Source: Rhabditophanes sp. KR3021
Lineage: Eukaryota; Nematoda; Chromadorea; Rhabditida; Alloionematidae
Length of the DNA stretch: 64,000 nt
Direction of reading: 5' to 3'
Assembly (NCBI GenBank): GCA_963281155.1
Contig: CAUJLY010000004.1
Coordinates: 4,278,001-4,342,000, forward strand
Positions 8,152 to 60,500 of this stretch are shown in pieces (the first letter of the stretch is position 1; each line of letters opens with the position of its first letter). A model generated the notes under the pieces. It made no database searches and was not told where the DNA came from. It saw only the letters and a list, made by a program, of their open reading frames with translations. The translations under genes and the position numbers were made by a program.

Positions 8152-11120
8152 ATGTCTGACAACAGAGGAGAGTAAGTTTTTATTTTTTTAAATATCAATA
8201 ATATTTTCAGAGATAATGAAGCGAAGAACGGACAACAAGATGAAGTCCAACGTTCTGAAACTTACGGTGAATCAACCATCATTGAAGTTAGTTTATAGTT
8301 AAAAAACAAAGTCTAAATTATTTTCAGGGAAACTACGATGAAGTTGTTGAAAGCTTCGAAGACATGGGCTTGAAAGACGAACTTCTCCGCGGGATTTTCT
8401 CCTTCGGTTTTGAACGCCCATCAATTATCCAACAACGTGCTATTGTTCCATGTTGCGGAAAGCGTGATGTCATTGCTCAAGCTCAATCAGGAACTGGTAA
8501 AACCGGTACCTTTTCAGTCTCTGTTCTTCAAACCGTTGATGAAACCATACCTGAAGTCCAAGCTCTTATCATGGCCCCAACTCGTGAATTGGCTCAACAA
8601 ATCCATCACGTCATCTCAAATTTAGGAAATTATTTGAATATCAAGATTCACGCTTGTATTGGAGGAACCAATGTTCGTGATGATCAGCGTCTTCTTGCTT
8701 CAGGAGTTCACATCGTCGTCGGAACACCAGGACGTGTCAACGACATGATTTCTCGTGGGTATTTGAAGACTGAATTCATCAAGATGTTTGTCTTGGATGA
8801 GGCCGATGAAATGCTGTCTATGGGATTCAAGGACCAAATCTACAGCGTCTTCAAAGCTCTCCCAACCGACGTTCAAGTCGTTCTCTTGTCCGCTACCATG
8901 GCTCAGGAAGTATTAGAAGTTACTAAAAAATTCATGGTGAGTTTGAGTTAATTACGCAAAAGTGAAAATATTAGGTTATCTATAATCTTTTGATTAATAC
9001 TTACTACTAAATCAAAATTATTTTGCTTCTTGTTAAAATGATGTTGTGATCTTCGCCATGAAACATAGTTTGAGTTATCCACAACCTTTTAATTAATATA
9101 AGTACTTTACTACTGAATTATTATGCTTTTTGTTAGTGAAGGTCAGTTTATTTAGATTATTATTTTCAAGTAAAATACAAAGAATTAAGCTTTTTATTAA
9201 AATGGTACAAAAAATACAACTAGTGAGATTGTGATCCTTTGTCAACATCTCGCCTTCTCTAAGCCCATCACTCCATCTTTGTAAAACGTTTTCCACGATG
9301 GTCTTCATATCTTTTGCTCTTGAGTGAAAAATCCTGATTAAGTAGAGCCCATTTTGGTTTAAATCATAATTTTTTCGATCAAACGTATACGACTTAAAAT
9401 AGCGCTAAAAGTGAGGCGTTTAAAAACTCATAATTTATTTATATTCTGTATAATAATTATTGTACTATTTCAGGACAACCCAATCAGAATTTTGATCCGT
9501 GAAGAAGAAGTTACCTTGGAAGGTAAAAATTTGTTAATCACAAAAACTTTATTAAAAACAAAATATTAATATTTGAGATCGTATTCTGCACGTCCTTCAA
9601 GGTCATTAAATGGAAATTCTTTTAAGATTAGTTAGGCCACTTCTCTGTTTCTTACTGATTCATTTGACTGGCAAAATCGAAGGAAGGTTTTACATTGTCA
9701 GAGTTAGTTAATTGCCCACGAAGAGCATTAATTAAGATTGCTTCTACATTTTCGGCAATTTCTTTTGATGGATAGTTTTCTTCGCAACAATTAACTCTTT
9801 ACCCGTCTTAGTTGCTTCGTGAAAGAATCGTTCTTTGTCGCTAAAGAGATGTAGTCATTCAAGATAAAGTTGAAATCTGATCTATGCTCACATATTCTTT
9901 GATGAGTCTCGTAGCTGTTCCCAATATAGTCAATTTCTTCTACAGTCAGATCAAAGTTCCACTCAGATGTGAATTTAAGAATAGGTGGGTCGAATTGCAA
10001 GTAGACATCGCAAGTCCTTTCATCTTTAGCATTTTTGATTTTTCCATAATACTAGTAGCATCATTATTAGCATTGAATTGTTTGCATATCTCTACCAATC
10101 GTTCGCAAGCTCTTTCTTTTTTGTGAGTAGCTAAAACAGTGGCAGTCTTAAAGTAATTTACACATGCGATACATTTGAAATCAGTTGGAATTTGTTCAAA
10201 TGCTTGACATGCCTCATGCTTTTGTTCTTTGATCTTCAAAGGTTTCCAAGAGATATCAATTGTCTAAAATTTCGAACCACTCATGAGTAAACAGACTTAA
10301 TAAGTGATTGGAAGTATTTCCCATAGATACAGCGGTTGTTCCTCTATGACTAAGAGTTAAACACCGCTCCCAAATTAAGGACATTGCTTCAGAAAATCCG
10401 CCAAGACTTATGGCATTAATCACACCATTATTTGAGACAAATTCTTGAAATATTCTTGCAATTGTCTTAGTGAACTATTGAAGGCATCAAAATTATTTTA
10501 ATATCATCATATTAATAACATTCAACCAAAATTTAAAAATCAAAGGTCTTAAAGTACTGTTGGTACATAGCATCTTTGATTAATAAAAAATGATTTATTT
10601 AATACTTTTATTAATTGTAATTTGATTGGCAGGTATCAGACAATTCTTTATCAACGTTGAAAATGAAAACTTCAAATTCGATACTTTATGCGATTTGTAC
10701 GATTTAGTCAGCATTACTCAGTCAGTAATCTTCTGCAACACCAGGAGGAAGGTCGAGGAACTTGCCAGCCAAATGACTGAGAAGTCATTCACAGTCTCCT
10801 TCATGCACGGAGATATGGACCAAAATGAGCGTAACATTATTATGCGCGAATTCCGTTCTGGATCCTCCCGTGTTCTTATTACCACCGATCTTTTGGCTCG
10901 TGGTATTGACGTTCAACAAGTTTCTCTTGTCATCAACTATGATCTCCCAGTCAAGAGAGAAAATTATGTACATCGTATTGGACGTACTGGACGTTTCGGT
11001 AGAAAGGGAGTTGCTATTAATTTTGTTAGTGACATCGATGCAAGACAATTGAAGGACATTGAGAAATTCTACAGCACCAAGATTGATGAGATGCCAACTG
11101 ATATTGTAAACTACTTTTAA
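8152..11120 (+). CDS. EIF4A: Eukaryotic initiation factor 4A (DEAD-box RNA helicase)
   Basis: ATP-dependent RNA helicase of the eIF4F cap-binding complex. Five exons (8152-8171, 8211-8286, 8328-8936, 9474-9522, 10633-11120) give 413 residues, the usual eIF4A length. All helicase motifs are intact: Q motif [12 protein letters not shown], Walker [45 protein letters not shown] and HRIGRTGR. The exon 4-5 junction gives [15 protein letters not shown], the conserved eIF4A linker. Codon use is C-rich at third positions compared with neighbours, as expected of a highly expressed gene. Introns 3 (537 bp) and 4 (1110 bp) are unusually long and carry antisense coding-like sequence. Confidence 0.95.
9215..9335 (-). 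other. Antisense coding-like relic in eIF4A intron 3
   Basis: On the minus strand a short open stretch reads [20 protein letters not shown] and [10 protein letters not shown], which looks more like protein than the surrounding AT-rich intron. It is opposite to eIF4A. No direct match to the ILINALR family was seen, so membership is only suggested by position and orientation. Confidence 0.3.
9640..10490 (-). mobile_element. Intronic antisense element relic (ILINALR family), eIF4A intron 4
   Basis: On the minus strand, inside eIF4A intron 4, a broken coding sequence runs from about 10490 to 9640. In order it shows a helical segment with HEWFEIL, a zinc-knuckle [19 protein letters not shown] (CxxC...H...C), a block ending [11 protein letters not shown], and the C-terminal motif [20 protein letters not shown] at 9703-9762. 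At least two frameshifts and one stop separate the blocks, so it is not functional as it stands. The same blocks in the same order occur in the long introns of PDIA6, and in part in PCCB and SYF2. Function unknown; a transposase or accessory protein of a mobile element is only a guess. Confidence 0.65.
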
Positions 11121-11643
11121 ATAATCCCCAAAATATTTAAATACTTGGCTATTCTATTTCGATATACTTCTTTGTAGTTCCATTTTGTCATCATTTAATT
11201 GTTTTTGTCTGGTGATAATATCCTCAAAGTCATGTTTTTATTGACAATTGATTTTGTTATTGTTACTAAGATTTTTATTTTTGATATATTATTCGTAATA
11301 ATTAAAAACTTTATCTTAATTATTTATTCGCACTTTAGCATATCCAAGTAGTTTCCAAATTGAACTTTTGCGACTTGTTTTGCGTTGATATTTTATATTA
11401 TCAACAACCATCACATAATAATTATCTATAAATAAAAATCATTCAATAAAAAGTACATTTAATCATACACGCAGTACTTGTATAATATTTTATTCATAAT
11501 AAATAAATAACTTCAAAAGTTCATTTAATATTTTAATTCAGCGAATATTTCAATTCAATAAACATTCCAAATTCAATCATCAATTTATTAAAATAAACAT
11601 TTTAATTTTCAATTCAAGGGACATTTAATTTTGTAATAGGAGA
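11121..11643. other. Convergent 3' intergenic region
   Basis: The eIF4A and PCCB genes end towards each other across 523 bp of very AT-rich DNA with several AATAAA-like polyadenylation signals on both strands (for example near 11430-11505). No gene seen. Confidence 0.5.
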
Positions 11644-14600
11644 TTAGAGTGGGATATTACTGTGCTTTTTAGCAGGCATGTGACTTTCCTTCTTCTCCAA
11701 AACCTTTAAATCTTCGCAGATTCTTCTTCTAGTTGTTGAGGGCTCAATCAAAGTGTCAATGAATCCCTTACCAGCTGCCGTGAAGGGATTGGAAAACTTT
11801 TCGATATAATGAGCTTCATGCTCAGCCACTCCATTCTTGGCATCGCTTTTGTATAAAATTTGGACGGCTCCTTTGGCACCCATCACAGCAATCTCCGCTG
11901 TTGGCCAAGCATAATTGATATCAGTTCCAAGATGCTTCGATCCCATAACATCGTAAGCTCCGCCAAAAGCTTTTCTTGTGATAACTGTAATCTTCGGAAC
12001 AGTAGCTTCGGCGTAAGCATACAACAACTTTGCTCCATGTCTAATTATGCCTGGAGCACCATATAACGTTAATATTAGAATTAAAAAGAGTTGTTAATTT
12101 TGGTACTTTTATGTTTTTCACCCCCAACTAAAAACTTTTGTCAACGATTTAATTCATTAGACCCTAAGGATTAAAAATATCATAAAATTAATAACAAATT
12201 GTTTAATCGAGGGATGTAAAAAGATCTTAATTTTTAGGTTTAAATGCTCAGTTAAGACACCCTATCAACTCTCTTTTAAAACCATGTCATTTTAAGTGTG
12301 AATGCTGCCACAAGATATGTACGTGTCGTCATGTCTATTTTTAAGATTAAAAACAGCTTCACTAATATTGTGTTGTTTATTTTTAGTCCATAAGAACGCC
12401 TATTAATCGGCATTACTAAACTACTATGGCTGATAAGAAGAAAGTAGTGTTAGGCAAAAGGAGAGATGTAGATATTTCTCGAGGAACTGATGTCTTTCTC
12501 AATCACTTGCAAAGAGTGCAAGTATACATGTGGAGGAAAAAGTCGCTTGTTCTGACGATAGAAAGCCTACCTTAACAAGAAGTAAGAATTTTGTGGACGA
12601 AAGTAAGTTCTAAAACTAATTGTTTGTAATAATTCCTTCTGATGAACAAGTCTAAGATGGTATGTTTAAAAGCATATGTTATTGTAATAAGTATTTTAAT
12701 CTATCTAAGCGTGGAAATAATGAGTTTATTAAACTCATTCAATTAGCCCAAATGCTCTATATAAGTTCAGCAAAATCAGAAGTAAACGACGATAAAGTGT
12801 ATGAAATAGTTGAATTCAAATCGATGCAGTGTTTAGGGCTCTTGCCATAGAATTTAAAACTGAACTAAATAACAAAACAAATAAATGTTGCTGCGTTAGG
12901 CCCAATTTATCTTCCTGAAATGGACAAGGACACATCATCAAAGACGATTATGAACATGACAAATGGCAAAATGAGTAACGATTCACTGGTTGCAACAATT
13001 AAAAGAAATTCAATTGTCTGGCCGCTTGATGATAAATGTGTTTCTGAACCTAACAGGAAATGTCTCTACCAAAAAGCTGACTTGTTTTGCACACATTGTC
13101 ATACGAAAATCAAAGAAACGATCAAGGGATATTATTATGGTGAAACATCCTTGAAAGTTGATGCAAAGTCTGAACAGCATTCACGCAATGTACATCACAA
13201 TTGGGTCTTAGCTGGAGTCAAGAAGGCCATTAGATATGCAGGGGAAACTGATGTTTATGGAAAAAGAATGTGGCATCACAGAATAGACTTCAAGCATGCT
13301 ATTCGGCAAAAGAGAAAATTGGATTAAAGAAGTTATTTGGGGTGAAGCATTTGGTGAGAAAGATGTGATACCGATCAAAAAGTCGCTAAAAATATTGAGT
13401 GTATCCTAATTAATGCTTTAAGGCCTCAACTGATAGATTCCGGCAAGCCATCCTTGATGAAGTAGATCATATGTTTCCACGAATGAATGCAGAAGTCGCA
13501 GATCTTATTCTTGAAGAATTTTTCAAAAAAATAATACTTCTAAACATATTCAATATTGTTAAAGTGTTCCCTTTTTTTGATTCTCACAGTTTTAATAAAT
13601 TTTGTCAACTTTACTAAAAAGAAAATTATAAGTTAAAATAAAAGAGAAAGGTTGTCCTTACCCTCCATATTCTTGAGCAGTTCCTGGCAAAAATCCTAAA
13701 AGAACAAATTTGATAAGACTTTTTAGTGTTTAATTGACTACCTGGTACGTCAACAAAAGTGATGATTGGAATGTTAAAGGCATCACAGAATCGGACAAAA
13801 CGAGCTCCTTTGACTGAACTGTTGATATCCTAAAATATTGTGACGTAAAACTGACTGAGTAATAAGTTATCTAACTTACCAAACAACCTGCGGCGAATTT
13901 AGGGTTGTTACCAACAATTCCAACACTTCTCCCATTCATGCGGGCGAATCCGATTACGATATTCTTAGCATAGTCGGGCATGATTTCGAAAAATTCAGCT
14001 TCATCAATGACAGATGTAATTACTAAAAATGGAATTATTAGAATATCTCAACAAAATATTTAATTATATGGCAGTCAGATGAATCAATTGTTCATATAAT
14101 ATGTTAGTACAAACACGGAGTGTTGAATAATCTGTTCAAAACTTACCATCTTTCATGTTGTAGGCTGCTGTTGATTCAAGTGGAATGACAGAGTTCAAAT
14201 TTGGAACATCACGGTCCCATGGGTCATCGCATTTTCTAATGGGAGCCGATTCCTTGAATGATAATGGCAAGAAATTGTACAATTGACGCATACTTAGAAG
14301 TGCCTCGATATCGTTGTCGTATGCGCCGTGGGCTACACCCGAAACAGTAGTGTGGGTTTTTGATCCTCCGAGTTCTTCTTGAGTAACATCTTCGTTGGTA
14401 ACGGCTTTAACTACTGCAGGCCCTGTAATAGCCATGAAAGAGGTATCACGAACCATGAATGTGAAGTCAGTTAGTGCCTGAAAATATAATAGAAGAACTT
14501 TAAAATGTATGAATTAATCTTTTACGGACCGGCGAGTACACTGCTCCTCCGGCTGAAGGTCCCGCGATGACAGATATTTGAGGAACTACTCCAGACGACT

Positions 14601-16980: not shown

Positions 16981-17244
16981 CCAACACTACAGTTTCAACA
17001 AACTATCAAACTACTCCTAACGTATAAACATATAATATCATTTGGATGTATTTAATATTGCATTCTCATTTGTGTATATTCTAAAAATAAAGTTTATTTT
17101 ATTTCATATCATTTTATTGTATTTGTTTGAGACTCATTAATTTTAAAAAGTTGTTGTCTTACACGGAAATAAAGTATATAGATTGGGAAAGTGACATAGA
17201 TCAACAAACGTGCTATCAAAATATTTTGCATCATTTATATTAAA

Positions 17245-19496
17245 ATGGCTGATGAAGATAAAGTAGAATCTGTTGATTCAACTAATAAAGGGTTTGATTT
17301 AAATGCCCTTAAAGAGAAAATGCGTTTATTGCACTCAAAAAGGGTAAGTTTTAAAATATTATTACAACTATAAATGCACATTTTAGATTGAAACGGAAAA
17401 GAAAAATTATGATATAGCTGTTCAGGAGGACCAACTTAAACGGAATAATTCGCAATTAGTCACAATGAAGCGCAAGAGAGAAGGCCAAGTCGTGAAGAAG
17501 TTTGAAGATGAAATGAAGGCTGAGGAAATGGGCATTGATTATGATAGATTAAAGTCCCTTGAAACATCAGCGGAGTATGCAAATAAGGTTGGAGATCATT
17601 TTAAAAGAAAAAAGCAGGATCGCGATACAGGATTTGCTAGTTTTGACGAGGCTGGTCTGAAGCAATATAAGCGAGTCTCTTCTGCGATAAAACCAAACTT
17701 TGAAAGTTACAATAAAATGAAGGAAGTCATTGGTGATTCAAACTTCTATCCAACCGCAGATACTATTACCAATGGAACATATTATCCATCAGCATTAGGT
17801 TTTTCATTTAGTTGATGTCCTTTACTAATTTTATTTTATTTTTAGGTAATTTTTATAGGAAACATGGATGATCAAATTAAAATATTTATTAAAAGGGGGG
17901 ACATATTAAAAGTTGGCACAATACTATTCAATACTATTAATTAGATTGCCATGCATGTTGCTCAGAACAATATGTCAGCTTTTTTACGATTGCTGAATGA
18001 TTCTTGTTTATAATACATTAAGTTGACTAAAGGAGTCAATGTTTGTCAAGACATCTTTGAAGTCCATTATAACTGAGTATCCAAGGGCAAGAGCTTCGTT
18101 TGTAGTCAAGTCTTCAGTTGACGACCACCATCTTTCTTATATTTTTAAAGGTGTCTAAAATAATCATGTCCTTAGCATTTAAAGAATATGTCTTGAGTAG
18201 CGACGTTTGGCATTCGCATTATGACCATCGAATCTCCTTTGGACGTCGGCAGATCCACCACAGCAAAAGATTAAGCTCGTAAATTGATCAAATGTCAAGC
18301 AAGATATAAACACTTTGTTAAACCATTGCAGGACTTTGCATCCTTTAATTCATTCTTAATCTTTAGCCTCAACTCAGCATGAGATGACTTCATTTCTTCC
18401 TCAAAAGTTATGGCTATTTCATTTCTAACTCTGAACATTTTCGTTTCTTCAAATGATACGAAGAACTATTAAAGTCATTGAATATGGTGGTGCAGCTTTC
18501 ACATTTGAGCTTGAGTCCTTTGACAATAACAAATTGAGTGTTTGGATGTGGAGTTGGCATTTTGTCATAATTCTCCACAATATCATACTTCGCTTCCTTG
18601 TAATTAACTTGTCCTAAGACAGTCTTTTCGAGATCTTGAATCAACAATAGGTTAAACCATTCTTTGAGCTTCTTATCAAAATCAACATTTTCGTAGTATT
18701 CTCGAATCAACCCAAAATGCCGACCATAATCACGCGAAACAGAGACAGACGTTTGCCAGGGTATTATGACCCAGAAAATTACTAACATCACACGAAGATT
18801 CAAAGAAATAACTTCTAAGTATACCAAAATCATTCTCCTCCAATATATCTTCTACACCTTCAACTACTAAAAAATACTCCTCTTGTAAAGTTAATTCCGG
18901 TGCTTCTAAGATTAAGACTCATGACAAGGATTGACTAAGCACTTCCGAGTCTGGAAGATTGATGATTATGTTTGATAGAGCTACCTTCTGCGACAACTTC
19001 TGGTCTGATTGTGACACTTCTTACTAACGGGCTCTTTTTTCACAGATAAACCTTTTCTTGGGGCCTCCGTAGCCGTCAGCGTCATTATTTTCACGTTCAT
19101 AGTTCACTTATCAAATTGAGTGAGGTATAAATGTGTATTTATATTAAGAAGCTAATTTAGTATCGAGTAAAAAAACCTCCTACCAATTAACATCTTCTAG
19201 AAGTATATTTCATTCTAATAAATATAAAAAATTGAGTTGTCATGTGTGATATAAGTCTACTTGAAATCAAATAATACGTACATTTAAAATTATTAGGCAT
19301 GCAAAAGTTGGTTGAGACAGTGGATCAACAAGAGAAGAAACGCAGAGAATATCACAGAAGAAGAATATTCGATCCTGATGCTACAGTTGACTACATCAAT
19401 GAAAAAAATAGAAAATTCAACGAAAAACTGGAGAAGTATTACGGAGAATACACGAGGGAAACCAAGGAAAGTATTGAAAGAGGTACTGCTCTCTAA
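17245..19496 (+). CDS. SYF2: Pre-mRNA splicing factor SYF2
   Basis: Spliceosome component of the NineTeen/XAB2-type complex. Three exons (17245-17343, 17387-17798, 19297-19496) give 236 residues, the family length. The middle exon reads [40 protein letters not shown] and GTYYPSA; the last exon reads [20 protein letters not shown] and ends ESIERGTAL, the conserved SYF2 C-terminus. The last exon lies 1.5 kb away and is easily mistaken for a separate small gene; the phase-1 junction (G plus GC) joins the two exactly. The intervening intron holds an antisense relic. Confidence 0.93.
18000..19105 (-). mobile_element. Intronic antisense element relic, SYF2 intron 2
   Basis: Minus-strand coding-like sequence opposite to SYF2. 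An ATG near 19100 ([17 protein letters not shown]) is followed by broken blocks, then a 139-residue open frame (18833-18414) with [10 protein letters not shown], and a zinc-knuckle [20 protein letters not shown], matching the HEWFEIL plus CxxC arrangement of the eIF4A copy in the same order. A further stretch [20 protein letters not shown] follows after a stop. The ILINALR end is not recognisable here, so this copy is assigned by the N-terminal blocks, intron position and orientation. Confidence 0.55.
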
Positions 19497-26389: not shown

Positions 26390-26395
26390 TCATAT

Positions 26396-29474: not shown

Positions 29475-32100
29475 ATGAACCCTAAGGTAGACATGGATGC
29501 CGAACGCAAGGTTTTAGTCGCGGAAAGTCCTCCACATGAGGATATGGATATAGATAGAAACCAAACTCCAGACATTAAAGTGTAAGTCAAAAGTTTGTCA
29601 TCATTTATTATTGTGCTTTTTTATAGAAAAGCTGTAGACAAATTATGGTGGATTAGATATGTCGAGATGTACACAACTCATAAATATTACTTGATTAGTC
29701 CTGTACAATATTGGAACCACAAGCATGGATGTGAGGGTTTTGATTACATATTCATTCCTGTACGTATTGCAAACGAACTAGAAAAGCAATTTACAACTGA
29801 CAGTACAATTAGAACAAGTCCCTTTATGAATGATGCATTGCCAGATGATAACGCATGTACTGCATTAATGTGTTTCCAACCACCCATCAAAAGGAAAATG
29901 CGCCCCGACGATTCTTATCTGAAAGAAGCTTTCCATCACCCATGCGGACTGAAGAATTCTGGCAACTCTTGCTACATCAATTGTAGCCTGCAATTATTCT
30001 ATTCTATACCAGGAATAGGAGATTTGCTAGATTCTCTCGCCAATACAAAGGGCCAGGATATGGAAGAAAGAAAAAATAACAAATTAACAAGTGCCTTGCA
30101 TTCGTATTATATTTATTTTCAACAAGGAATTAATTTGAAAGAATCCATTGATACTAGAGATTTCAAAAAAGTAGTTGATGAAGTTAGCAATTTATATCAA
30201 CTTGGTGGTCAACAGGATATTGACGAATTTCTCGGTTTTCTTCTGGATCAACTTGAAGAAGAAAGCAAGGAAATTGAAGGAGGACAAGATTTGGTGCAAA
30301 AAAAGTTTGGAAATATGCAGGTAATATTTTACTCAAATTAGGCTAGTTAAACGAGGGAATCAAAAACATATTAAAATTAATCGTCACTAGTTATATTGAG
30401 TTTAAGCATCTTTTCGGTCAAGATGTCAGCGACTACACATGTATTGATGGCATTAAGCAAGTAGACACCTGGCATGGAGCAGTTTCCGTAATCGGATGCT
30501 TGCATCTTTCCACTAAGATAAACTCAAGATTCTGAGTTAACTCTTTATTAGGTGCCGGAAGCTTGAGACGGAGAGTTTCAGCCGGGTAAGTTCTAATTCC
30601 GCCCATTCTGTCCAATAAATCACCGTTCTTAAGAACACGATTGCATTGTTAAAAGTGTTCATTAATCCTGCCATCCTTTCTTGAAACTTTGATAGTTAGA
30701 GAGAATGTCATCGGCTTCTCTTGGATCAAGGAGGAAATAGGCATAGACTTGATGCTCACTAGAAGCAGCTTTCCAACCTGGCCAAACTTTGTCCAATCAT
30801 TTAGAGGCATTAAACTCGGGGTTGTGATTTAGTTCCTTGCACCGACGTAAATTGGTGTGCCGAGCTAATGCATTGATAACCATCCTGCAGTGTGTACAAT
30901 GGACTTCATCTGCGCATTTTGCTGCTTCAGTATGAGATTGCATGATGATTCAGTTTTAAATTTGGAAGACATCTCTCAATTTTTGACCTATTCTTAAATT
31001 ATTGGCAAAGACTGAAGACACGTTTCTTTTTTATTTCACCAGTAGTTTCTACAATAAAAAGATCCACCAATTGAGCAACCCTAAAATTCTTAGTCGCTTC
31101 TCTGGCCTTTTTCTTTGAGCTTTCAATACTTTCCAAGTAGCATTGATGAAGTGATCAAGGCCAGCAAGATACCATTTACAGTGAGCACAATAGATATCTC
31201 TCTCACGTCTTTTCTTCCTACAGATAAGGTCCTTCATCGATCATTGATGCTTCCTTCCCATAGCATTCGTAGGATAACTGTCTCATTCCAATGGTCAAAG
31301 CCATTTCCTCCTTGTTTCTTCTGAAAGGCTTTTTTACACAATTATTGACATCGCTTTCCCCATAGTTTCCTCCTGTTTGAGTGAGCGGACAATTAAAAAT
31401 ATAGAAACAACAATTGGTGAGGGTTACAACTTAATAAGAATATAAATACATTAAAAACAACAATAACTTTGGAACTAACTATTTTTAAAAAGAAACCTTA
31501 GTTATATAATTTCCTTAAATGTACAATATTAATTCGAATATGCAGGTTAATCATATCAAATGCCCTGAATGCCACTTCCGATCATCAATAAAGGAGCCTT
31601 TTAAAATTCTGAAGTTGTCATTAAATGAAACTGCTACATCGGATAAAATTGAAAATTTGTTGGATTATTATTGCGAAGCCCATTTTTTAAACGAGGGAAA
31701 TGAATGGGAGTGCAGCAATTGTAACAGATTAGTGTTAGCAGAGATCTGTACAGAATTTACTGAATTGAGCGATGTCTTGTTTATCACAGTCAAAAGGTAC
31801 ATCCAAACTGGCGTTGATAGAAGAAAGTCTTTTACAAAGATTGAATATCCGCTGGACAATTTGTGTATTAATGTTAGAGATAGTGCGGGAAATGTGATTG
31901 GAGATACATCGTCGTATCAACTTGTTGGTCTTGCCAAACATAAGAGTTCACTAATCACTTCAGGCCATTATACAACTCTCGTAAAATATGATAAACGTTT
32001 TTGGTATTGCAATGATGAAGATATACATTATGACAAGATGGATAACCATATATCTAAAAATGTATATGCCTTAATGTATGTTCGTGAAACTAAGAAATAA
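29475..32100 (+). CDS. Ubiquitin-specific protease (USP family, peptidase C19)
   Basis: Deubiquitinating cysteine protease. Exons 29475-29581, 29627-30320 and 31546-32100 give 451 residues in frame. The Cys box CGLKNSGNSCYINCSLQLFY holds the likely catalytic Cys; QQDIDEFLGFLLDQLEEE is the second conserved block. Exon 3 begins with a zinc site (IKCPECHFRS and WECSNCNRL) and ends with the His box TSGHYTTLVKYDKRFWYCND. The N-terminus holds an extra domain (WWIRYVEMYTTHKYYLISPV) that I do not recognise for certain. The subfamily cannot be set by eye. The 1225-bp intron 2 is flanked by an 11-bp direct repeat and holds an antisense relic. Confidence 0.85.
30400..31240 (-). mobile_element. Intronic antisense element relic, USP intron 2
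   Basis: Minus-strand broken coding sequence opposite to the USP gene. From high to low coordinates it shows two zinc-knuckle candidates, IYCAHCKWYLAGLDHFIN near 31170-31200 and VHCTHCRMVINALARHTNLR near 30890-30940, then SSEHQVYAYFLLDPREADDI, and GGIRTYPAETLRLKLPAPNK, with stops and frame changes between. The zinc-knuckle pattern (CxxC, H, C) resembles the other intronic relics; the ILINALR motif itself is not found, so this may be a distant member. Confidence 0.5.
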
Positions 32101-34832: not shown

Positions 34833-37800
34833 TTAAAGATCAGTCTTGATATCATCCAATTCAACATCACTTAGATCAATTTCTTCTTCTACTGGCATTT
34901 CACCGTCTTTACCATCCCAGGCGGCGACCTTTTGAATAACTGGGAATTTATTTCCAGCCAGAGTTTGAGTGTTTCCTCTTCCGTAAGAAAGATCTCTCAA
35001 AAATTCACTGATTCCATCTTCGGCAAATGATCCCTTCAACATAGAGAACTTTTGCTTGCGAGTATTGACAGCAACCATTGCTGGGTATCCAAAACCTCCG
35101 ATTTCAAAAGCTTCTTCCATTTGGTATTGTTTTCCAGCTTCAGTCCAAGCCCATCCCCAGATGTTTTTCTTGTATTTGTCAGCAAGCTTTTGAAGCATGG
35201 CGACATAGTCGTTTCTGCACTTTGATTGACAATCAAGAATGTGTGGGAGGACAGCAATAATACAGAGTTGTTTATCCTTGCAGACCTTATTCTCAGTTTG
35301 CTCTTGGTCCAAAACTTCAACAACTTCTGGAGCAGGTAAATTTTCAGCGACCTTCTTGCTAGCCCAGGAGACAATATCATTTGCAGTTCTTCCACCATCA
35401 TACTCTTGTGCATCAGAAGATTTCATTGAACCGGCTGGGAAGTATTTGATAGTTGGATAACCTTGAAAAAGGCAAAATTGTTAGTTTTGTAAATCAGAAA
35501 TATATTTATTAAGTTTGTGTAAATATTACTGCAAGATAATTATTTATATGTCATGATATTTTAAATCTGTTTTTAAGAGATTTATACCGTAGACTTAACC
35601 TCAAATAAGAATCTCGAAGTTGTTGTGATTGAAGGTGAACTTATGGAAGTTATTTTTGCTTAATATGCGAATAATTCAATATTTTTAGATTGAAGTGGAT
35701 GAAAGAAAAAAGACTGCATCAAAGTTGATACTGGAGTTGCTGTAGTTCAAGACGTTAAAGAGAAGAATAGGGAAGAGGAAATCAAGGTTCTGTATCCCGT
35801 TCAAACAGAGGGTTATGCTAGACCGTCAAAAATTCAATCTTAGAAGGCAAAAGTATTTATATGAGCAATTATAAAGTACTCAAAGATGCGGAGCCGTTTG
35901 GCTGGAATTTGTATGCGACTTGTTTGATAAATGTTTCGATTTATTAATTAAACATCTGTATGAAGCTCCAACAACTCGAAAACCAAAAGATAAGGACACA
36001 TTATTAACTGACATAATAGATTCAGTTGCAAGACAGGATTAACTGACAATGCATTTATTTTCTTTGGAACCGGTCGTCTTGGCGTGCAACGACACTACAA
36101 AGAATTCTTCAGCAAGCTTAGTTTTCCAAATAGAACATATAATATGTTAAGGAATATATCCTATACTTTTAAAGAAAACATGACTTTTAGAAATGAATTT
36201 TTGGTAATATTGATGGGTCTCAAATGTAAATTTTGCCGAATACCTACGCCTGAAGATGATGAAACAGAAGTAACTGCTGCTAAAAGAGAACTATTAGAAA
36301 TAGTAGAAGCTGTGGAAAGAATACCATCAGCAGATGAATCAATTCATTTGGGAATGACTTTAAAGGTAGAAAAATTGGGATTGATCCCTCTAAAACTACT
36401 AGGCAGGAAAAATCTAAAGTCATCAAAAAGAAATTAGATCAACTTAAAGGTGCCAAAGAAGATGCAAAATGTTGGGTCTATTTATTTATTGGACCTATAT
36501 TTCTTGAGAAGGATTGGAAATTGGCTAACGAGGAAGATAGAATTAAGTACATTGGGAAATCCATTAATATGTAAAAAAGAATTTATCCTCACATAATAGA
36601 TTTTACTTATTCTATTAAATGGGAATTTAGATTTTCTAAAAAAGGGAGGTTCTTAAACAAACTACGTATTGGCAAAAGAAGTTAATTGTTATCAAGAAGG
36701 AATACGAATCATCAAAGATATGCGAGAACGTAAAGCAATTCTCGCCAATGCTCTTTGTGATCAAGTCTTTAATTCAGACTCTGGTAACAAGTCTCTTGAC
36801 TTTCTTTCACAAATGAATCCTGAAAAATTTTTGAAGGAGCAAGACTCATTTTAAGAATTTTGCAGTATGCAAACATTCAGAGCATGCTATTTTTGTAAAT
36901 TTTTCGCGACTTTTAATTGTCCTTTAAACCATACCTAAAAATAAAAAATATAAGCTAGAGCAAACATAGATTCAAATACCTTGAACGCCGAATTTTTGGG
37001 CAAGTGCGCCATGAACTGTGGCATCAACTGATCCAAGCTTGAATTTTCCCTTAAGTTGAGAAGAAGCGGCAACCCAGTTTGGATGAAGTTGCTTGCAGTG
37101 ACCACACCAAGGAGCAGTGTAGGCGACCTAAAGTATGTATTAAGGTCATGATAAACAAATCTAGTGACTTACCAACCATGCAGAATCAGAATTGTAGACA
37201 AGTTCATCAAAATTAGACTCGGTCAAATCAACGACTTCAGATTTGCCATTGTTTCCACCAGATTTTCCGTTATTTCCAGATGATCCACTTGATTTTCCTC
37301 CAAGTCTTGCTTTGGCAGTAGCTGATACTTCCTTTATGCAACTTTCTACAAAACTGGCGGCAGTTCTTTGTCCATTGAAATCAAGTGGCTTTTTCTTATT
37401 AGCTCCGAAAATCTTAATTGTTGGGAATCCTGAATGTTAAATAATATAATATAAATTATTTAGTATTTTAGTTAACAAGCGATTTAATTACACTTTTTAA
37501 CTTAAATTTAAAGAGACTGTGTGTCTGCAGTTAGTTCTTTAAGAGTTTGTACTTTGAAATTTGAATAAGCTACAAGCTATTACGTGCCTATTTAACATCA
37601 AATGTGATGTATTTAACCATTCTTATTATTCTTAGTGCCAAAATAACGCTTTAGCCTGGTTTATTATTTTAAAATGGAAGAAACTAAGAAGAACGAGGAA
37701 AAGAGGAGAAAAGTTGCAACTACCGCGACTAATTATTCCTCGGATATTTTCCATGCGGACTGGATCCCAATTTTAGGATTCGGAATGACCAGACAACTCT

Positions 37801-38861
37801 TAAATGGTCGCAGCTTTGAGATATAAGGACACGATACCCCTAACTCTTATGAATTGCAGTGTAATGCAATTAAAACTAACTTCAAGTGTTTTGATTGTGG
37901 AAATTATTTGAATAACTCGAATCCGCTTGCTACACATAAAAGAATAGATCATGTGGGAAACAAATTGACTCAATAAAGGAATTCAACCTCATCAATGATG
38001 TAGCTGCCATTAAGAGATAATTAGGTGGATTGACTGCAGCTGAAGAGACAAGCCATGTGATGTAAATCTGGTAATTGATTCATTAGCTGTTGAATCTACA
38101 TTGGCTTTGCTAAGGCAATGAGCCGGATATTTTAAGTCGTAGAATGGCTTTACACCGATGCGACTACAATTTCGCTATTAAGTGGGATATGTCTTCGACA
38201 AAAAGGAAAAAATCTTTCCTAAGTTAGTCAAGGCAGGAAAGCAATTGGCTATTATCAAAAAGACTTATCCCTCTAAAAATATCGCTGAAAACATTGAATG
38301 TATTTTGATTAATGCTCTACGTGATCAAGTCATCAATTTCGACTCAGGCGAGCCTTCTCTACAATTTGTTGGTTACATGGATCGGAAGAAGAACAGACGA
38401 GTCGATAAATGATCTTGAATGACTTTTCTGTATGTGCAACTATTGAATATCCTTTAAAGTATTAGTTCCCATTTTGTTTAATTAATAAAAAACCCATTTT
38501 TAAGTTACTGTGCAAAATGGTAAATACCTTGGATGTTATATGGTCCTCCAACAGAACGATGTTGCGTCATATCAACAGCTCCAACTTTAGCTAGTCCCTT
38601 AAGGGCTTTAGCCGCTTTCAAAAAATCCTCTGTCATAGCAACACAGTGTCCACAATTTGGACTGTAGAACTTCACTGAAAGAGGAGGAAGGTTACTAGGA
38701 TATAAATTAATTAAAAAATTACCTATCCATACGGCATCAGATTTAATGACTTGTTGTTCAAAATTGGCTTCAGTCAATTCGACAACATCTCCCTTTGTTC
38801 CATATGAACCAGCAGAAACAGAGGCAACCAATAAGGTTAATGCAATTAATTTGGCAAGCAT
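34833..38861 (-). CDS. PDIA6: Protein disulfide-isomerase A6 (P5)
   Basis: Endoplasmic reticulum oxidoreductase. Five exons (38861-38723, 38674-38528, 37429-37173, 37127-36980, 35461-34833) give 439 residues, equal to the family length. Signal peptide [15 protein letters not shown]; first thioredoxin domain with active site SPNCGHC (Asn replaces the usual Trp before CGHC); [16 protein letters not shown]; Gly/Ser/Asn-rich linker; second domain with [18 protein letters not shown]; then the redox-inactive third part ([37 protein letters not shown]) and the acidic tail [15 protein letters not shown]. The C-terminus is KTDL in place of KDEL. Introns 2 and 4 (each over 1 kb) contain antisense element relics; the exons can be mistaken for three separate genes. 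Confidence 0.95.
35690..36860 (+). mobile_element. Intronic antisense element relic (ILINALR family), PDIA6 intron 4
   Basis: Plus-strand broken coding sequence inside a minus-strand gene. Blocks in order: [40 protein letters not shown], a knuckle [18 protein letters not shown], then after a frameshift [20 protein letters not shown] (like [15 protein letters not shown] in the eIF4A copy), [12 protein letters not shown], and the C-terminal [20 protein letters not shown] followed by SLDFLSQMN (36719-36810), equal to SFDFASQMN of the eIF4A copy. Several frameshifts and stops. This copy gives the longest upstream coding-like region, so the intact protein would probably exceed 350 residues. Confidence 0.65.
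37675..38412 (+). mobile_element. Intronic antisense element relic (ILINALR family), PDIA6 intron 2
   Basis: Plus-strand sequence opposite to PDIA6. An ATG at 37675 gives [20 protein letters not shown], then [10 protein letters not shown], a zinc knuckle [20 protein letters not shown], frame changes, [20 protein letters not shown], and an open frame (38182-38412) ending [20 protein letters not shown], then DSGEPSLQF. This is the best preserved C-terminal block of the family. The ATG context, also seen in the PCCB copy ([13 protein letters not shown]), suggests that the element protein starts with a short Lys/Glu-rich segment. Confidence 0.66.
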
Positions 38862-39829: not shown

Positions 39830-40504
<675 letters not shown>

Positions 40505-49473: not shown

Positions 49474-49508
49474 ATAAAACATTTTAAAAATAATTTATTC
49501 AACACTAA

Positions 49509-50307: not shown

Positions 50308-50330
50308 ATAGAAAAGATTGTTATTTTCAA

Positions 50331-51521: not shown

Positions 51522-54500
51522 ATGAATACCGAATTTGAAAGCGATCCCGGATATGAATTTCTCGGCATATCAAAAGAGGAAAGAATTGCCTTATCCTCCA
51601 AGCCTTATGATTCCAAGAAGAATTGCTGGGTAATTGATGCCGAAGAGGGTGAGCAATCATTAAATTAATTAAGATAGACGATATTTATTAAAAATAGAAA
51701 AATATGATTAGTGTTTTAGGAGTTTTTTTGTTTGACGTGTTGCAGCAACTACTACCTTGTTATGTTGCTCCTTATCATAAAAGATTTTCAGCTCATCTGA
51801 CAACTCATCCCTTCTTTCCCTTAATTGCTTTTCTATTTTCAGATTTTTTCGAGACCCTTGACTTTCTTGTTTTAACTACTCTTACAGAAGCTTCTCTTTA
51901 TCAGTTAACGTAGATGGATCAGCATTTAATTTTTCTTTTCCGACTCTAAGATGTTCCACATTTCTAGCTTTCTGTGTCGAAGACAAATTGTCAAACCATT
52001 CTTGATCTGCTTTACTAACTGGAAGACTGTTTTTAATATTGTAGGTAATTGCAGTCCTTTTGCATCTCTTATTCCATTAGATCTTAAATTATGCTTTAAA
52101 ACGATTTCGTGTCTAATAGAGAAGAAACTATGGTGACACAGTCTTTCAGATGGCTTCATTTCATAAGACGCTTTGTAAATAGCTCTTTTTCAATATCATT
52201 CTTTCCTTTGATAAACGCATAAGTATTATAGTAAAATTGCCATCTTCATTCTTATTAACACCGTTTTCAAAGACCAATTTTTTGACAATTCATATAATTA
52301 TTGTAACTATTGTAATAATGAAATACTCAGATTCATTTGTCAATTGCAAATAGCATTATTAATTCATCTTGCTCTTTATTCGTGATGTCTAAAGAAATAA
52401 CAGATTACTTATTTGATTATATATTTTTGATTAGAAGCGCTTATGCCAACAATATTTTGTGTAGGCGTATTGCGTAGGCGAGTGATATATAATCAAATTA
52501 ATGACTTTGTTTATAATTTATTCTAATGGCATAATAAAAAAATAATGCACTAAAGTTCACGGTGAAAAATAAATAAACAAGTAATTTTCAGGTTTCATCG
52601 ATGGAGAAATCACAGAATCCCAAGGTGATAATGTAACCGTAGTTACTAGCAAGGGAAATCAAGTTATCGTCAAAAAAGAAGCCATCCAAGAAAAAAATCC
52701 ACCTAAGTTCTTTGCTGCTGAAGAAATGAGTGATTTAACATTTTTGAATGAAGCTTCAGTTTTGGCCAATTTGAAGGAGCGTTATGCAAAATTGATGATT
52801 TATACCTACTCAGGTCTTTTCTGTGTCGTCATCAATCCTTACAAAAGATTGCCAATTTACACTGAATCTGTAATCAGTGCCTACAGAGGAAAAAGACGTA
52901 ACGAAATGCCACCTCATTTGTTTGCCACTGCTGATGAAGCTTACCGCAACATGATTCAAGGTAAATAAAATAATTATAAAAATTAATACATCCTTTAAAG
53001 ATCGTGAGAATCAATCAATGTTGATTACCGGCGAATCCGGAGCTGGAAAGACAGAGAACACCAAAAAAGTCATTTCATATTTCGCAGGTACATTTTTGCT
53101 TTTATAAATCCGTAACCTATTTTTCAGTCGTTGGCGCGGGGCTTAATGAACCTACCGCAACGGAAACTGGAGAGAAGAAGGTAAGTAAACGATATTAGAT
53201 TGGCCGTGTCCAACAACGTGATCTGCTTTCTAATATTTTCTAATAATTTATCAACTAGCCGAATTACATAATACCTTTCATTATTAGATCCAACAAATTA
53301 AATAACAAAGGCTAATAGTAATCACCTTATTTTTTGATCTTCCCTCCCTTAAAAAATGGCTACCCTTACTTCTCCTTCTAAGTATCCCGATCTTTCTTTG
53401 TAACCACTTATATTACCTTTTTTCTAGATCCTTTCCAAATCAACTATATTTTCACTTTTTTAATTTTGTAACCTTTTTTTATTTTCGCCTCCCCATCTTT
53501 AATGATATGCCCATAGATGTCTGTAAAAGATTGTTTGCATTATATTTTTTGTTGTGACTAAGATAATGTTCCATGATTATGGACAGACATTTTTGTCAAT
53601 AGAATGTAGACCGTCTTAGTGAAATCAGTATTTAGTTTTAATTCATCATATTTCATAAAAATATCAACAAACGATTGAGAGTTATCTTGGACGAATACCA
53701 ATAAGTCGTCAACGTCTTCCAGAGTATCTTCTATGCAATAAAGTTTTAATGCACAAATGAAGTATTTTTGATATTAAACACACTAAATACTATGAGCAAT
53801 TATTTTATGGCATTTCAGATCGGCCTTGAAGAACAAATTGTTCAAACAAATCCAGTTCTAGAAGCCTTCGGAAATGCCAAGACCGTTAGAAATAACAACT
53901 CCTCTCGGTTCGGAAAGTTCATCAGAACACATTTCAACTTTAAAGGAAGATTGGCTGGAGGAGACATCGAACATTATCTTTTGGAGAAATCTCGTGTTGT
54001 TCGTCAAGCCCCTGGAGAAAGATGTTATCATATTTTCTATCAAATCATGTCTGGAGCTATTCCTGGATTGAAAGAAAAACTCCAATTGACGAAAGATATT
54101 CATGGATATTATTTTGTTTCACAAGCTGAAGTTACCATTGATGGAATGGACGATGCCGAAGAAATGCGGTTGACTCAAGAAGCTTTTGAGATCATGAATT
54201 TCGATCCTGAAGAAGTAACAGATCTTTACAAGATTTGTGCGGCTATTATGCATTGCGGAAACATGAAATTCAAGCAAAGACCTCGTGAAGAACAAGCTGA
54301 ACCTGACGGAACCGAAGATGCTCAATCAGCTGGCCACAATTTCGGGGTTTCGGCCGATAACTTCTTGAACGCCATTGTCAAGCCCCGCGTCCGCGTAGGA
54401 GGGGAATGGGTCAATAAGGGCCAGAACCTTGAACAAGTTGCATGGGCAGTAATGGGAATCAGTAAGGCTGTTTACGCTAGAATGTTCAAATGGATCATTA

Positions 54501-57500
54501 ACCGCTGTAACAAGACCCTTGGATCCAGAACTGATATTATGAAAGATCTATTCATTGGAGTACTTGATATTGCTGGATTTGAAATTTTCGATTTCAATTC
54601 TTTCGAACAACTCTGGATCAATTTCGTTAACGAGCGTCTCCAACAATTTTTCAATCATCACATGTTCGTCCTCGAACAAGAGGAATATGCTCGTGAAGGA
54701 ATTGCATGGGAATTCATTGACTTTGGACTTGATCTCCAGGCTTGTATTGAACTTATCGAACGTCCGATGGGTATAATCTCGATGTTGGGTGAGTTAACAG
54801 AATTCAGATATTAGTCGGATTCATACAAATGAATAAAGTAGTCACATCCGACAATTAATAGCACAGTTATGCAACTTTTAGAAAAAGGCATTTTTTTAAA
54901 GAGGCTAAAACACATTTGGTTTAAAGATATTATTAATCATTGGAACGAGATTAGTTCTAGGTCACCATTTTAAGATACAAAAAAGAAGACTAGTTTTAAA
55001 AAAAATTTATTATATTAAGCATAATGTAATTAGATATGATTAAATAGAACTAGATATATACAATTATTGGTGAGAGTTATATGATGGCTGCTTGTACTCC
55101 TTGCCATAGAATTTATATTGGATTATTCCCTTTTTATCATTTTCAAAAACTTCTTTGATAATTGATCCGAGACTGTCAATTTCGGGGTTGCTGATTCTTA
55201 CAAGACTGATGTTATTCTTCTTAAAATAGTGGCTTTTCCTCAAATAATTTTGGATCCTTAGTTTTTAATGAAACACATTTGCAGGTTGCCCTTTTCCATA
55301 GCATAGTGTGCACATATTGACTTCACCACTTTCAACAAATTTACTTGTTCTTGTATGACAATTTGAACTTGTGTGCCGGCCAAGTACATGTTTGAGTGCT
55401 ACATTTAAACATTATAAAAGCATTATCCCCATAAGTCAAAGTATCAACATTAATTCCTTAATTGCTTTTGGAAAAAGAGGATATCTTTAACCAAGTTGCT
55501 GTCAAGGAATTTCAAATAGTTTGTCTATCAGCTTTAGTTACAATTTTTGTGTCATCATATTCATTTGTGAATTTCTTAAGTACTCACTGTTCTCAAAGAT
55601 GTATTCTTCTGCAACATTTGCACGCCTTAATTTAGTTTCATGTTCTAATTTACCAGCTAAAAGATGTTTGTAATAGTCTGTCACCACCTTTTAACAAAAT
55701 ATCATCCTTATATGTAAGATCTTTTACAAATTTGACTCTAGGAACAAACTTTCTAAATCTTTCAATATCATTAGCAACTTTTGTTAACTTTTTAAATACC
55801 GGCTTAACAATAACTTCTTCTTGATTAATAACTTTCTCAACAATAATGTCATCATTAATGGTCTTATTTTCCCCTTCTTCAACCATAGTAACTACATCTT
55901 TCTTAAGCCATCATACAACCACACCCAACATTTGAAATATTTTTTCAAAACTTTATTCTGGAGCATCAGTTGTATTATCTTGGATTTTTCTACTCCCAAA
56001 AAAGTATTTAATCAATTCCAAGAGATAATATACCAAGGCGTTTTTCTTATTACTCAAAAGTGCCTTATTCTTCGAAAGGTAGATAAATATCAAGGGGTAC
56101 AAGGGTGGGAGGCACCACAATGACGACCCTTATATAGGGGAAAAGGAGTGAGATGCATCATCGATATGCGTACTCTGAGCACAAATATCGAAACATTATC
56201 TAAATTATTGAAAAAAATACTTAATCCCCCAAAAGGTGTAATATCAATCACCCAAATATACCTCTAGTCACCCAATATACTAGTTCTAAATGCACCTTAG
56301 ATAACATGACAGCATTTTAAATTTTACGATAATCACTAATCTCTCATTAATTTAATTACATAAATACAAAATAATAATGATTCGCTTTTTCGATGAGGAA
56401 TGTATTGTTCCTAAGGCAACTGATTTGACTTATGCTTCGAAGTTGAGTGACCAACATTTGGGCAAACATCCAAATTTCCAAAAACCCAAGCCTCCAAAGG
56501 GAAAACAAGCCGATGCCCACTTTGCTATCGTTCATTATGCAGGAACCGTCAGATATTCTGCCATAGGATTGCTTGAGAAAAATAAGGATCCATTGAATGA
56601 TACCGCCGTCGCCGTTTTGAAGCACACTGAAGGCAACGCGCTTTTATTGAACTTATGGGAAGATTACGTTACACAAGAAGAAAAAATTGAACTAGACAAA
56701 CAATCGGCCGGAGCCGCCGCCGGTGGAAAGAGAGGAAAATCATCTTCTTTCTTGACCGTTTCCATGATCTACAGAGAATCGTTGAATAACCTGATGAACA
56801 TGCTCTACAAAACTCATCCTCATTTCATTCGTTGTATCATTCCCAATGAAAAGAAACAATGTGGTGTTATAGATTCCGCTCTTGTCCTCAATCAGCTTAC
56901 ATGCAATGGTGTACTTGAAGGAATTAGAATCTGTAGAAAGGGTAAGCAATACAGCGCACATTAGTTGTTACATTTACGTTTTAGGTTTCCCAAATAGACT
57001 TTTGCACGCAGATTTTGTCTTCAGATATAAAATATTAGCAACATCTGTTCCAAAGGATTCGGATGCCAACAAAGTAGCGATCGGTGTGTTAGAAGCTTTG
57101 AAAAAAGAAGGAAATTTGACTCCTGAGGAATACAAGGCTGGTAAGACTAAGATCTTCTTCAAAAGTGGCATCTTGGCCCGTATGGAAGATTTAAGAGATG
57201 CTAAATTATCAGCTATTATGGTTGGATTCCAAGCTCAAATTAGATGGTATCTTGCCCAATGCGAAGTCAAAAGACTCCATCAAATCAAGAAGACCGTTAC
57301 AATTATCCAAGAAAACATCCGTTCATGGTGTACTCTTAGAACTTGGGACTGGTTCAAGCTTTACGGATTGGTGCGTCCTATGATTAAGGGAGATAAGGAA
57401 AAGGAGAAGGAACTTGCTGCTGTGGCCGAATTGACCGAGAAAATAACTGTTTTGCAAGCATCTTTAGCTGTTGAAGAAGCTGCCAGAATTAACTTGGAAT

Positions 57501-60500
57501 TGAAAGTTAATGATATAAGCAAGGAAAGAGATCAAATCGCCGAAAGTCTTGAAAAGGAAAAGGCGCTTTTGGAAGAAGCTGAACAACAAAAGAAGAAACT
57601 CGAGTCAATAAAAGCTGAATTGGATCGCGAGGTTAATAACTTGAATGAGCGCGTTGGTGACATGGAAGCTAAAAATACCGAGCTTCAAAGACAAAAGAAG
57701 AAGTGTGATCAAGATATTGAAGATTTCAAGAAAAATGTCCAAAATCTCGACTTGAATATCAGAAAATTGGAGTCAGAGAAAGCTAGCAAGGACCAAACTA
57801 TTAGGTAATTGGATTCTTTAATTATGTATAGTAAAAACTTTATTTGATTTAGATCTCTTCAAGACGAAATGAATGTACAAGATGAAACTATCGCCAAGTT
57901 GAACAAAGATAAGAGAATCCAAGAGGAGCAAAACAGAAAATTAGCTGATGAAATGACCTTGATGGAAGAAAAGATCATCCACATGGAAAAACTGAGAGAC
58001 AGACTCGAGAATCAATCTAACGAAGTTGAAACTAATTTAGATTATGAAAAGAATCAAAGAAATGCTCTTGAGAAAGCCAGAAGAAAGCTCGAATCCGATC
58101 TTAAGATTGCCCAAGAAACAATCGACGAGCTTTCAATCCAGAAACACGATCTTGAACAAACTTTGAAGAGAAAAGAAACAGATCTTCATGTTGCTTTAGG
58201 CAAGATTCAAGATGAAGCCATTAACGTAGCTAAATTGAATCGCCAAATCCAAGACTTACAAGGGCGCATTCAAGAACTCGTTGATGAATTAGAAAATGAA
58301 CGCTCTAGTCGCAATAAGAGTGAGAGAAACCGCGCACAAATGGTTTGTTAAACGCCCCTTATACCATAGGGCGCAAAAATATGTATTTAAAAAGCAAAGG
58401 AGTAATTATTTAGGACAACGAAGTATTTATTTAAAATATTAAGAAAAAGTATCTAATTGATAGGCAAAATTGAAGACAATACTAAATATTTGTTAATGCA
58501 TATATTACATATTGTGACTTGCACTGTTCATGGAAGTGCATAGCACCCTGTACGGACCATATTTAATATCAGATGCTCTTTGATTATACACCACATTAGT
58601 TAAATTAGGAAACAACTTTGAATTTAAGAGATACGTTTCGATATTTAGTGCATCAGCGAAGATTTTGACCCTTCTTGTGACAGAAGTAGCTTCGTCATTC
58701 AACCCACATATGCTAGAATAAGTTCTTTTACTGTGAAATCAAAAATGTAAATGCCATAGTTTCTATAGGTCGTTTATTGGAATCTAAATTTTGATAAAAA
58801 CTTAAGACAAAGAACCAAACTTGCAACATGTACCCTTTAAATGGACAGTAGAGTTACATATTAGAAATTTAAAAAATTAACCTTGTTCATTATCCATCTA
58901 ATGTACTTTTCTATTTAGCAACAAGAATTAGAAGCCCTTTCTGAAAAACTCGAAGCCGCCGGTATGTCACCAATACATTATTTCTTTATTTTTATCACTT
59001 TGGAATTCACTATTTAAATTTTTACTCTTTCAGGTGGAATGTCAGCTGCTCAGTTTGAAATGAACAGAAGACGTGAAGCTGAACTTACTAGACTAAAGAG
59101 AGATATTGAAACATTGTCAGTTAACCATGAAAACCAATTAGCTGCCATGAAAAAGAGAAACAGTGATTCGGTTGCCGAATTAGCTGATCAACTCGAGAAC
59201 ATGTGCAAACTTAAGGTTAGAACTGAGGGAGAGAAAAACAAACTTCAACGTGACCTCGATGAAGCAAATTATAATGTTGATTCTACCAATAGAGCCAAGA
59301 TTGAAATGGAAAAACAATACAAAACTATGGAGGTTCAATACAGTGAAATTTGTAGCAAGGCTGAAGAGCAAAGTCGTCAAATTAATGATTATGCAAATGT
59401 CAAGGCAAGACTAATTAACGAAAACAACGAACTCACTATCACAGTTGGTGATCTTGAGAACCAACTTGGAAACACCCATAGGCTTAAGGCCCAATTGTTT
59501 GCTAACCTTGATGAAGTCAAGCATAGCCTTGAAGACGAAACTCGTGAAAAACATAACTTGGCTGCTCAATTTAAGGGGGCTGTTCATGAAAATGATAACT
59601 TACGGCATACCATCGAAGAAGAAAGAGCCGCTAAGAATGAGTGCATGAGAATCATTTCCAAACTGTACGTTCTTTCCTTCTACATAAAATGAAACATTCA
59701 TATTTGATACAAATATGATAGGTTTTCATTATTTAAGAAATATTTTTCCAACTTCTTATAATTTATATTTTTAGTAATGCCGAAATTCAACAATGGAAAG
59801 CAAAGTGTGAAAACGATGCATTGAATAAGGCTGAAGAAATTGAGGAAGCCAAGGTTAGTTTTTTACTATAATTTTTCGAATATGAAGTTTCTCTATTATT
59901 TACGGAGTTATGTTTTGTAAATGAAAATAATACAACGTCCTATTTCAGAGAACATTGCAAGAGAAAGTAAACGAACTTAATGAATTCAATGAAACTATGG
60001 TTCTTAAGGTCTCCAATTTAGAAAAAATCAGAGCAAAGTTGATGCAAGACTTGGAAGACGCCCAATTAGATGTAGAAAAAGCTACGCAATATGCCGCTGC
60101 CCTAGAATCTAAGCAGAGAAGTTTCGATCGCATTATCGAAGAATGGAGAAAGAGATGCGACGATCTAGGAGCCGAGTTATTATCTGCTCAAAATGCAAAC
60201 CGTACTTTGTCTTCCGATTTGTTCAAGGTAAAATCATCCCTTGATGAAGCTGAGGAACAATTAGAATCTTACAAACGCGAAAACAAAAATATGTCATTGG
60301 AAATCAAGGATTTGTTGGATCAATCTCTTGAGTCGAATCGCACTATTAGTGAATTACAAAAACTTCTTAGAAAAGTAGAAACAGAAAAGGAAGATTTACT
60401 AGTCGAGGTATGCCAATACATGTGAATAAGAAACATAATAAAATATTTTTAGTTGACCAATGCCGAAAGCGCACTTGAAGCCGAAGAAGCTAAAGTTTTG

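Follow-up and report, generated by a model that had tools for sequence, protein, structure and literature searches.

Putative autonomous introners coding for a predicted GIY-YIG nuclease in chromosomal genes of Rhabditophanes sp. KR3021

The origin of new spliceosomal introns is an old open question, and most introners described to date do not carry the enzyme responsible for their mobility. In the available text of Gozashti et al. 2022 (PMC9860276), introners are mostly non-autonomous, with family median lengths of 30-654 nt, and no nuclease ORF is described, the word 'endonuclease' occurring 0 times. Nuclease-coding spliceosomal introns were described in 2025 as the shintrons, or spliceosomal homing introns, of mirusviruses (PMC12768974); the available text of that report states that such nucleases had not been seen with spliceosomal introns before, and contains 0 occurrences of 'antisense' or 'opposite strand'. 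Penelope-like retroelements, of which parts of PMC3846280 give an account, are animal mobile elements with a GIY-YIG domain and an 8-bp target-site duplication.

The introns described here are best interpreted, at a probability of about 0.7, as a family of autonomous introners, mobile elements of about 1-1.5 kb that become introns. As judged from sequence comparison, introners and mirusvirus shintrons would be the nearest known kinds, the present family corresponding to a nuclease-coding introner in chromosomal genes. With the introners, as far as the available text of PMC9860276 describes them, it shares repeated intron families in unrelated genes and, at one or both ends in subfamilies A, B and C described below, similarity that seems to reach the splice sites; with some introner families it also shares a short duplication (3-9 bp in those families) that supplies one splice site, and a lack of inverted repeats. 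Unlike those introners, the intron itself codes for a predicted nuclease, which in this sample always lies on the strand opposite to the host gene. The shintrons of PMC12768974 are likewise GT-AG introns without signs of group I or II introns that code for GIY-YIG (132 cases in the text available) or other homing-type nucleases; they sit in virus genes with a gene preference, whereas here chromosomal housekeeping genes are occupied at many unrelated sites by an antisense ORF with two GIY-YIG domains. The nuclease superfamily is also that of the GIY-YIG homing endonucleases of group I introns (I-TevI, PDB 1mk0), from which these introns differ in their GT-AG ends and in the absence of any Rfam group I or II match at E ≤ 1 in five element stretches. 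Penelope-like elements share the GIY-YIG nuclease, but no reverse transcriptase was present in the element ORF. In the literature searched, which excluded most subscription papers and preprints, no account was found of comparable introns in the genome of a cellular organism. An element in chromosomal genes that combined splice signals on one strand with a nuclease of its own on the other would connect introners to homing introns, and such a family would make intron birth testable with one protein and one target.

Members of the family in the window

The window, the whole stretch of DNA analysed, comprises 64,000 nucleotides (C4:4278001-4342000); the genome, 44.8 Mb in size, is assembled in six contigs. 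A muscle-type myosin recognised by eye and a MIR-domain receptor gene point to an animal; a spliced-leader search gave no signal, as was also the case in the control genomes. When a profile (64 rows, 443 positions) was derived exclusively from copies elsewhere in the genome, 19 ORFs of the window matched it at E ≤ 0.0065, every one of them antisense to its host gene and confined to eight introns; reversed window ORFs, used as a control, gave 0 matches at E ≤ 1. A further nine ORFs fell between E 0.09 and 1 and were mixed, three being collinear pieces of USP intron 2 and some others falling within exons of the host gene or sharing its strand. Comparison of all window ORFs of at least 35 aa with one another revealed a motif that recurs in intron pieces antisense to eIF4A, PDIA6, PCCB and a kinase-like gene, the best pair being PDIA6 intron 4 and eIF4A intron 4 (E 8e-13). 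The first-pass annotation had reported antisense protein-like frames in 12 long introns. As one protein family these stood up for exactly the six introns it had called strong (eIF4A intron 4, PCCB intron 7, SYF2 intron 2, USP intron 2 and PDIA6 introns 2 and 4) and not for the remaining six, the weaker eIF4A intron 3, WDR6 intron 3 and myosin introns 1, 4, 5 and 8, none of which contained a match to the non-window profile at E ≤ 1. Two antisense members, in introns at 1728-2078 and about 62577-62841, were absent from the earlier list.

One member is PDIA6 intron 4 (37430-38527, 1098 nt), where the host is on the minus strand, the relic occupies 37827-38409 on the plus strand with a best E of 7.5e-31, and the join across the intron is open. 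Intron 4 of eIF4A (9523-10632, about 1110 nt), in a plus-strand host, carries on the minus strand five ORF pieces covering profile positions 129-412 (best E 3.8e-18); its join is also open, and its donor end is of the type designated subfamily C, in common with the genome stretches L023, L031 and L028. In PCCB intron 7 (approximately 12051-13661, host minus) three plus-strand ORF pieces at 12869-13527 matched at E 5.8e-7 to 2.3e-4. Inspection of 12051-13661 by eye revealed no GT-AG junction that kept the frame cleanly, and a sequence error or altered splicing may be responsible. The relic of USP intron 2 (30321-31545, host plus, relic minus) was recognised by a match at E 0.006, three weaker collinear pieces and tblastn with family fragments; the host exon matches the UCH domain and the intron is flanked by a perfect 9-nt repeat, AATATGCAG.

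Two members adjoin a second, short intron. PDIA6 intron 2 (35462-36979, host minus) consists of a 45-nt short intron at 36935-36979 followed by the element at 35462-36934, in which four plus-strand ORF pieces (36338-36851, best E 1.3e-11) were found; the exon join is open. SYF2 intron 2 (17799-19296, host plus) similarly comprises a 47-nt short intron at 17799-17845 and an element at 17846-19296 with a minus-strand relic at 18417-18851, its membership resting on one profile match at E 0.001 and on a repeat subfamily of its own; here too the join across the intron is open. Both elements adjoin the AG of the short intron with no exon between, and the same layout was seen by eye in the genome copies L036b, L047b and L029a. 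The AG|GT junction of the short old intron with the element donor (17799-17845; 36935-36979) may represent a recursive splice site.

The two additional members are shorter. In the intron at 1728-2078 of the kinase-like gene, named by eye, a plus-strand relic at 1873-1980 matched profile positions 378-403 (E 1.3e-6) between segments coding on the minus strand of the host. The intron at 62577-62841, with its acceptor set by eye, lies in a minus-strand gene resembling the Na/K-ATPase beta subunit, the host exon of which matches PF00287 at E 6e-4, under the cut-off of that model; the plus-strand relic is at 62643-62732 (E 0.0044).

Myosin intron 5 was rejected as a member. A short piece of it resembled PDIA6 intron 2 in blastp (E 4e-4), but it had no profile match and its best antisense ORF no second copy in the genome. 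That ORF (55677-55904, minus strand) has a good coding score of 17 yet is single-copy. As a separate observation, two minus-strand pieces of the kinase-like gene, 2062-2526 and 2543-2851, share 92% protein identity over 100 residues, which indicates a recent internal duplication.

Copies in the genome and their orientation

With a 76-aa piece of PDIA6 intron 4 as query, the best 150 of 477 candidates all had E ≤ 4.5e-7; three overlapping pairs were seen by eye among them, which places the family at no fewer than about 147 sites in the 44.8 Mb genome. The similarity of the intronic blocks beyond chance, on which the introner reading of the first-pass annotation depended, is thus present both mutually and towards at least about 147 places. 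A 289-aa ORF returned 143 matches of 744 candidates, another ORF the best 150 of 561 and the intact protein described below 99 matches among 759 candidates; the match lists of these four queries overlap and were not merged. The subfamily of the SYF2 relic yielded 98 genome matches, of which one place may hold two or more. Elements measure about 1-1.5 kb, and similar introns recur at many positions in unrelated genes that have no exon sequence in common. Contig C6 accounts for a quarter of the bases but, as counted by eye, for only 6 of the 150 matches listed for the PDIA6 piece.

Orientation was assessed in the window and in 30 genome stretches (ranks 2-30 of the list obtained with the PDIA6 intron 4 piece, plus L052), a sample drawn from the top ranks and hence made up of well-preserved rather than random copies. 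Coding segments were assigned with a codon model for which long ORFs had served as training set, profile matches were used to group the copies and the tally was made by reading the rows. Of the 53 copies or fragments, 33 were flanked on each side by host coding sequence antisense to the element: 32 by the codon model, together with L023, the flanks of which encode consecutive parts of a kinase domain (profile positions 1-40 and 44-91) on the antisense strand. A further 18 of the 53 had antisense host coding on at least one side: 15 by the codon model, L052 (host with a MIR domain) and two of the three L029 pieces (host gamma-glutamyltranspeptidase), both of these hosts being antisense to the element. 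No call was possible for two of the 53, the first pieces of L029 and L047. Neither a sense nor a clearly intergenic copy was shown among the 53 copies or fragments, in agreement with the antisense pattern described in the first-pass annotation. If orientation were random and copies independent, a result of 33 of 33 one way would have a chance of about 1e-10. Same-strand segments occurred in several rows, most of them resembling an N-terminal part of the element that had escaped masking; in L033, L036b, L041, L050b and L051b they lay on the far side from the element. In an independent check, 18 of 30 flanking ORFs received a Pfam name at E ≤ 0.001, each opposite its element, one of the 18 (PH) scoring under its cut-off; five of eight were named in a further set.

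Element ends, splice sites and the host exon duplication

Splice boundaries were set by eye beside conserved blocks. Same-subfamily copies in different genes were compared over the final 35 nt of the intron, YAG excluded, and over the first 35 nt of the exon. Identity in intron and exon respectively was 0.80 and 0.53 for subfamily A (15 pairs), 0.75 and 0.59 for B (6 pairs) and 0.66 and 0.52 for P (10 pairs), against 0.57 for unrelated short introns over 231 pairs (maximum 0.77). At the donor the values were 0.72 and 0.57 for A (10 pairs), 0.71 and 0.56 for C (6 pairs) and 0.54 and 0.55 for P (6 pairs), with 0.54 for unrelated introns. With the boundaries set in this way the shared sequence reaches the splice sites, which would make both ends part of the element in A, the acceptor end in B and the donor end in C. 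Subfamily P shares no sequence at the donor end in the six pairs compared, and its acceptor sharing is modest. The acceptor end of subfamily A contains a branch-point-like CTAAT, which by its position would act as the branch point, followed by AAAAAAGACGAATAAAA.

When the host exons were joined in silico, the frame was open in 10 of 11 cases, the exception being L042. In all four cases compared with PDB chains (citrate synthase, ARPC4, OPA1 and phosphatidylserine synthase 1) the alignment passed through the junction free of gaps. The element thus appears to be the intron itself.

The end of the upstream exon matches the end of the same intron in the manner of a short target-site duplication. 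Of the 26 boundary pairs entered, 25 were compared, L027 having defied placement and L042 being retained despite its lack of an open join; 61 matches were counted over 6 nt, as opposed to 46.8 with the ends of other introns (p 0.0018). Several lengths were tried: 7, 8, 10 and 12 nt gave p values of 0.0018, 0.0096, 0.013 and 0.007, and 4 nt was not significant (p 0.19, 25 introns). With gaps allowed, p was 0.003 from 6 nt onwards, the floor of 300 shuffles. The start of the intron and the next exon gave no duplication signal in the same 25 introns (p 0.54-0.96). Only USP intron 2 has a perfect 9-nt repeat among the introns in this test, and 20 of 25 upstream exon ends finish in AG. The duplicated AG therefore seems to supply the acceptor, as occurs in some introner families according to the available text of PMC9860276. 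No terminal inverted repeats that would pair the two ends were detected in four regions. A hairpin in the 5' region was dropped as a candidate, its z score being -2.1 in L052 but +0.56 in L006.

An intron of 165 nt in the phosphatidylserine synthase 1 gene (L053) has both subfamily-A ends and no ORF, and represents an internally deleted copy. It was found through the closeness of the two end motifs, one such case having been fetched; the donor motif occurred 99 times and a backward control 26 times, and the acceptor motif 6 times against 1.

The alternative that fares best is that an ordinary transposon lands in existing introns, its sense copies being purged for their promoters, poly(A) or splice signals. 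Antisense bias is common among intronic elements, and this explanation would also accommodate the donor end of subfamily P and the old introns of 45-47 nt beside the elements of PDIA6 intron 2 and SYF2 intron 2. Against it stand ends that in A, B and C are shared as far as the splice sites, the apparent duplication at the end of the host exon and an intron built of the two ends alone, and none of the 53 copies or fragments was shown to be in sense or clearly intergenic; it is considered unlikely. An autonomous protein-coding introner, weighed in the first-pass annotation against plain purging of sense insertions, is the better supported of the two, since neither an equal share of sense copies nor an absence of similarity between the blocks was found. 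Further backing comes from element ends that appear to fall on splice sites in three of the four subfamilies, from the AG-ending duplication and from the short copy composed of ends only.

The encoded protein and the proposed mechanism

The intact copy sought after the first-pass annotation was located at L052, as an ORF of 443 aa from its ATG; the stretch was taken without its left flank, and "intact" refers to the ORF. Open frames of 509 aa were listed at two places, C1:5777240 (L052) and C1:7293804. The L052 ORF matches PF01541 (GIY-YIG) in two stretches with 26.3 bits against a cut-off of 22.6, and its C-terminal half matches PF19239 (21.8, cut-off 21.4); matches to zinc-finger models were all under the Pfam cut-offs, as was PF01541 on the ORF fragments. 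Among Pfam matches at E ≤ 1 there was no reverse transcriptase or transposase. PADLOC PD-T4-3 (E 1e-5) and a PHROG of unknown function (E 7e-6) matched at a position that agrees with the second nuclease domain. Matches to PDB were weak (E 0.097-0.24) and comprised I-TevI ('Intron-associated endonuclease 1', 1mk0), T4 endonuclease II and a GIY-YIG protein; I-TevI was also the best, though weak, PDB match of the family profile (E 0.097). No homologues were found outside the genome with single pieces, the intact protein or a 16-row alignment, in a database whose cover of such organisms is uncertain, and a search of viral_contigs with the intact protein gave 5 pattern matches and no relative. A 5' piece of another copy lies at 2121-2270 of L052, between the intact ORF and the MIR-domain exon, so that this intron holds more than one copy.

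Changes between copies were distributed as 30, 22 and 48% over codon positions 1, 2 and 3. Omega was defined for 116 of 369 pairs and had a median of 0.21 among these, many pairs being saturated and the pairs not independent of one another. These values point to past purifying selection on the coding lineage, as distinct from the decayed copies.

A more specific form of the introner reading, towards which the evidence leans, is that an animal nucleus harbours autonomous nuclease-coding spliceosomal introns, cellular 'shintrons' that transpose. A tandem GIY-YIG enzyme would make a staggered cut at AG-ending sites, one duplicated AG would become the acceptor and antisense placement would be obligate, the process having created hundreds of introns as well as small non-autonomous copies. 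One strand of the element would provide the donor GT and a branch-point-like sequence, with the acceptor AG obtained through the target-site duplication; the other would encode the predicted nuclease, which would combine two GIY-YIG domains with C2H2-like zinc fingers. The two nuclease domains may nick the two strands roughly 6-10 nt apart next to an AG, and the element, having no reverse transcriptase or transposase of its own in the ORF, would be copied into the break by repair. Because ORF and splice signals would occupy opposite strands of the element, a spliceable transcript would arise only from insertions antisense to the gene, and these alone would be kept in exons. The ORF would decay after insertion.

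A further alternative is RNA-mediated intron transposition by reverse splicing and reverse transcription, with the antisense nuclease ORF as a passenger or as a mere opener of the target. The copies seen to date lie in genes and share one orientation, as expected of reverse splicing, and reverse transcriptases are encoded elsewhere in the genome as separate genes (37 PF00078 matches, 31 above cut-off). The target-site duplication signal and the past purifying selection on the ORF argue against it, and it is regarded as quite improbable. Classical homing only, in which the intron passes from allele to allele through the nuclease and its multiple loci stem from rare ectopic events or gene duplication, would suit GIY-YIG enzymes as typical homing endonucleases and is the explanation given for the mirusvirus shintrons in the available text of PMC12768974, but the copies sit in unrelated genes with no exon sequence in common, which makes it very improbable.

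Nine of the reverse transcriptase matches (e.g. C1:4236014 and C2:2810314) have one identical score, which suggests a young family of reverse transcriptase elements.
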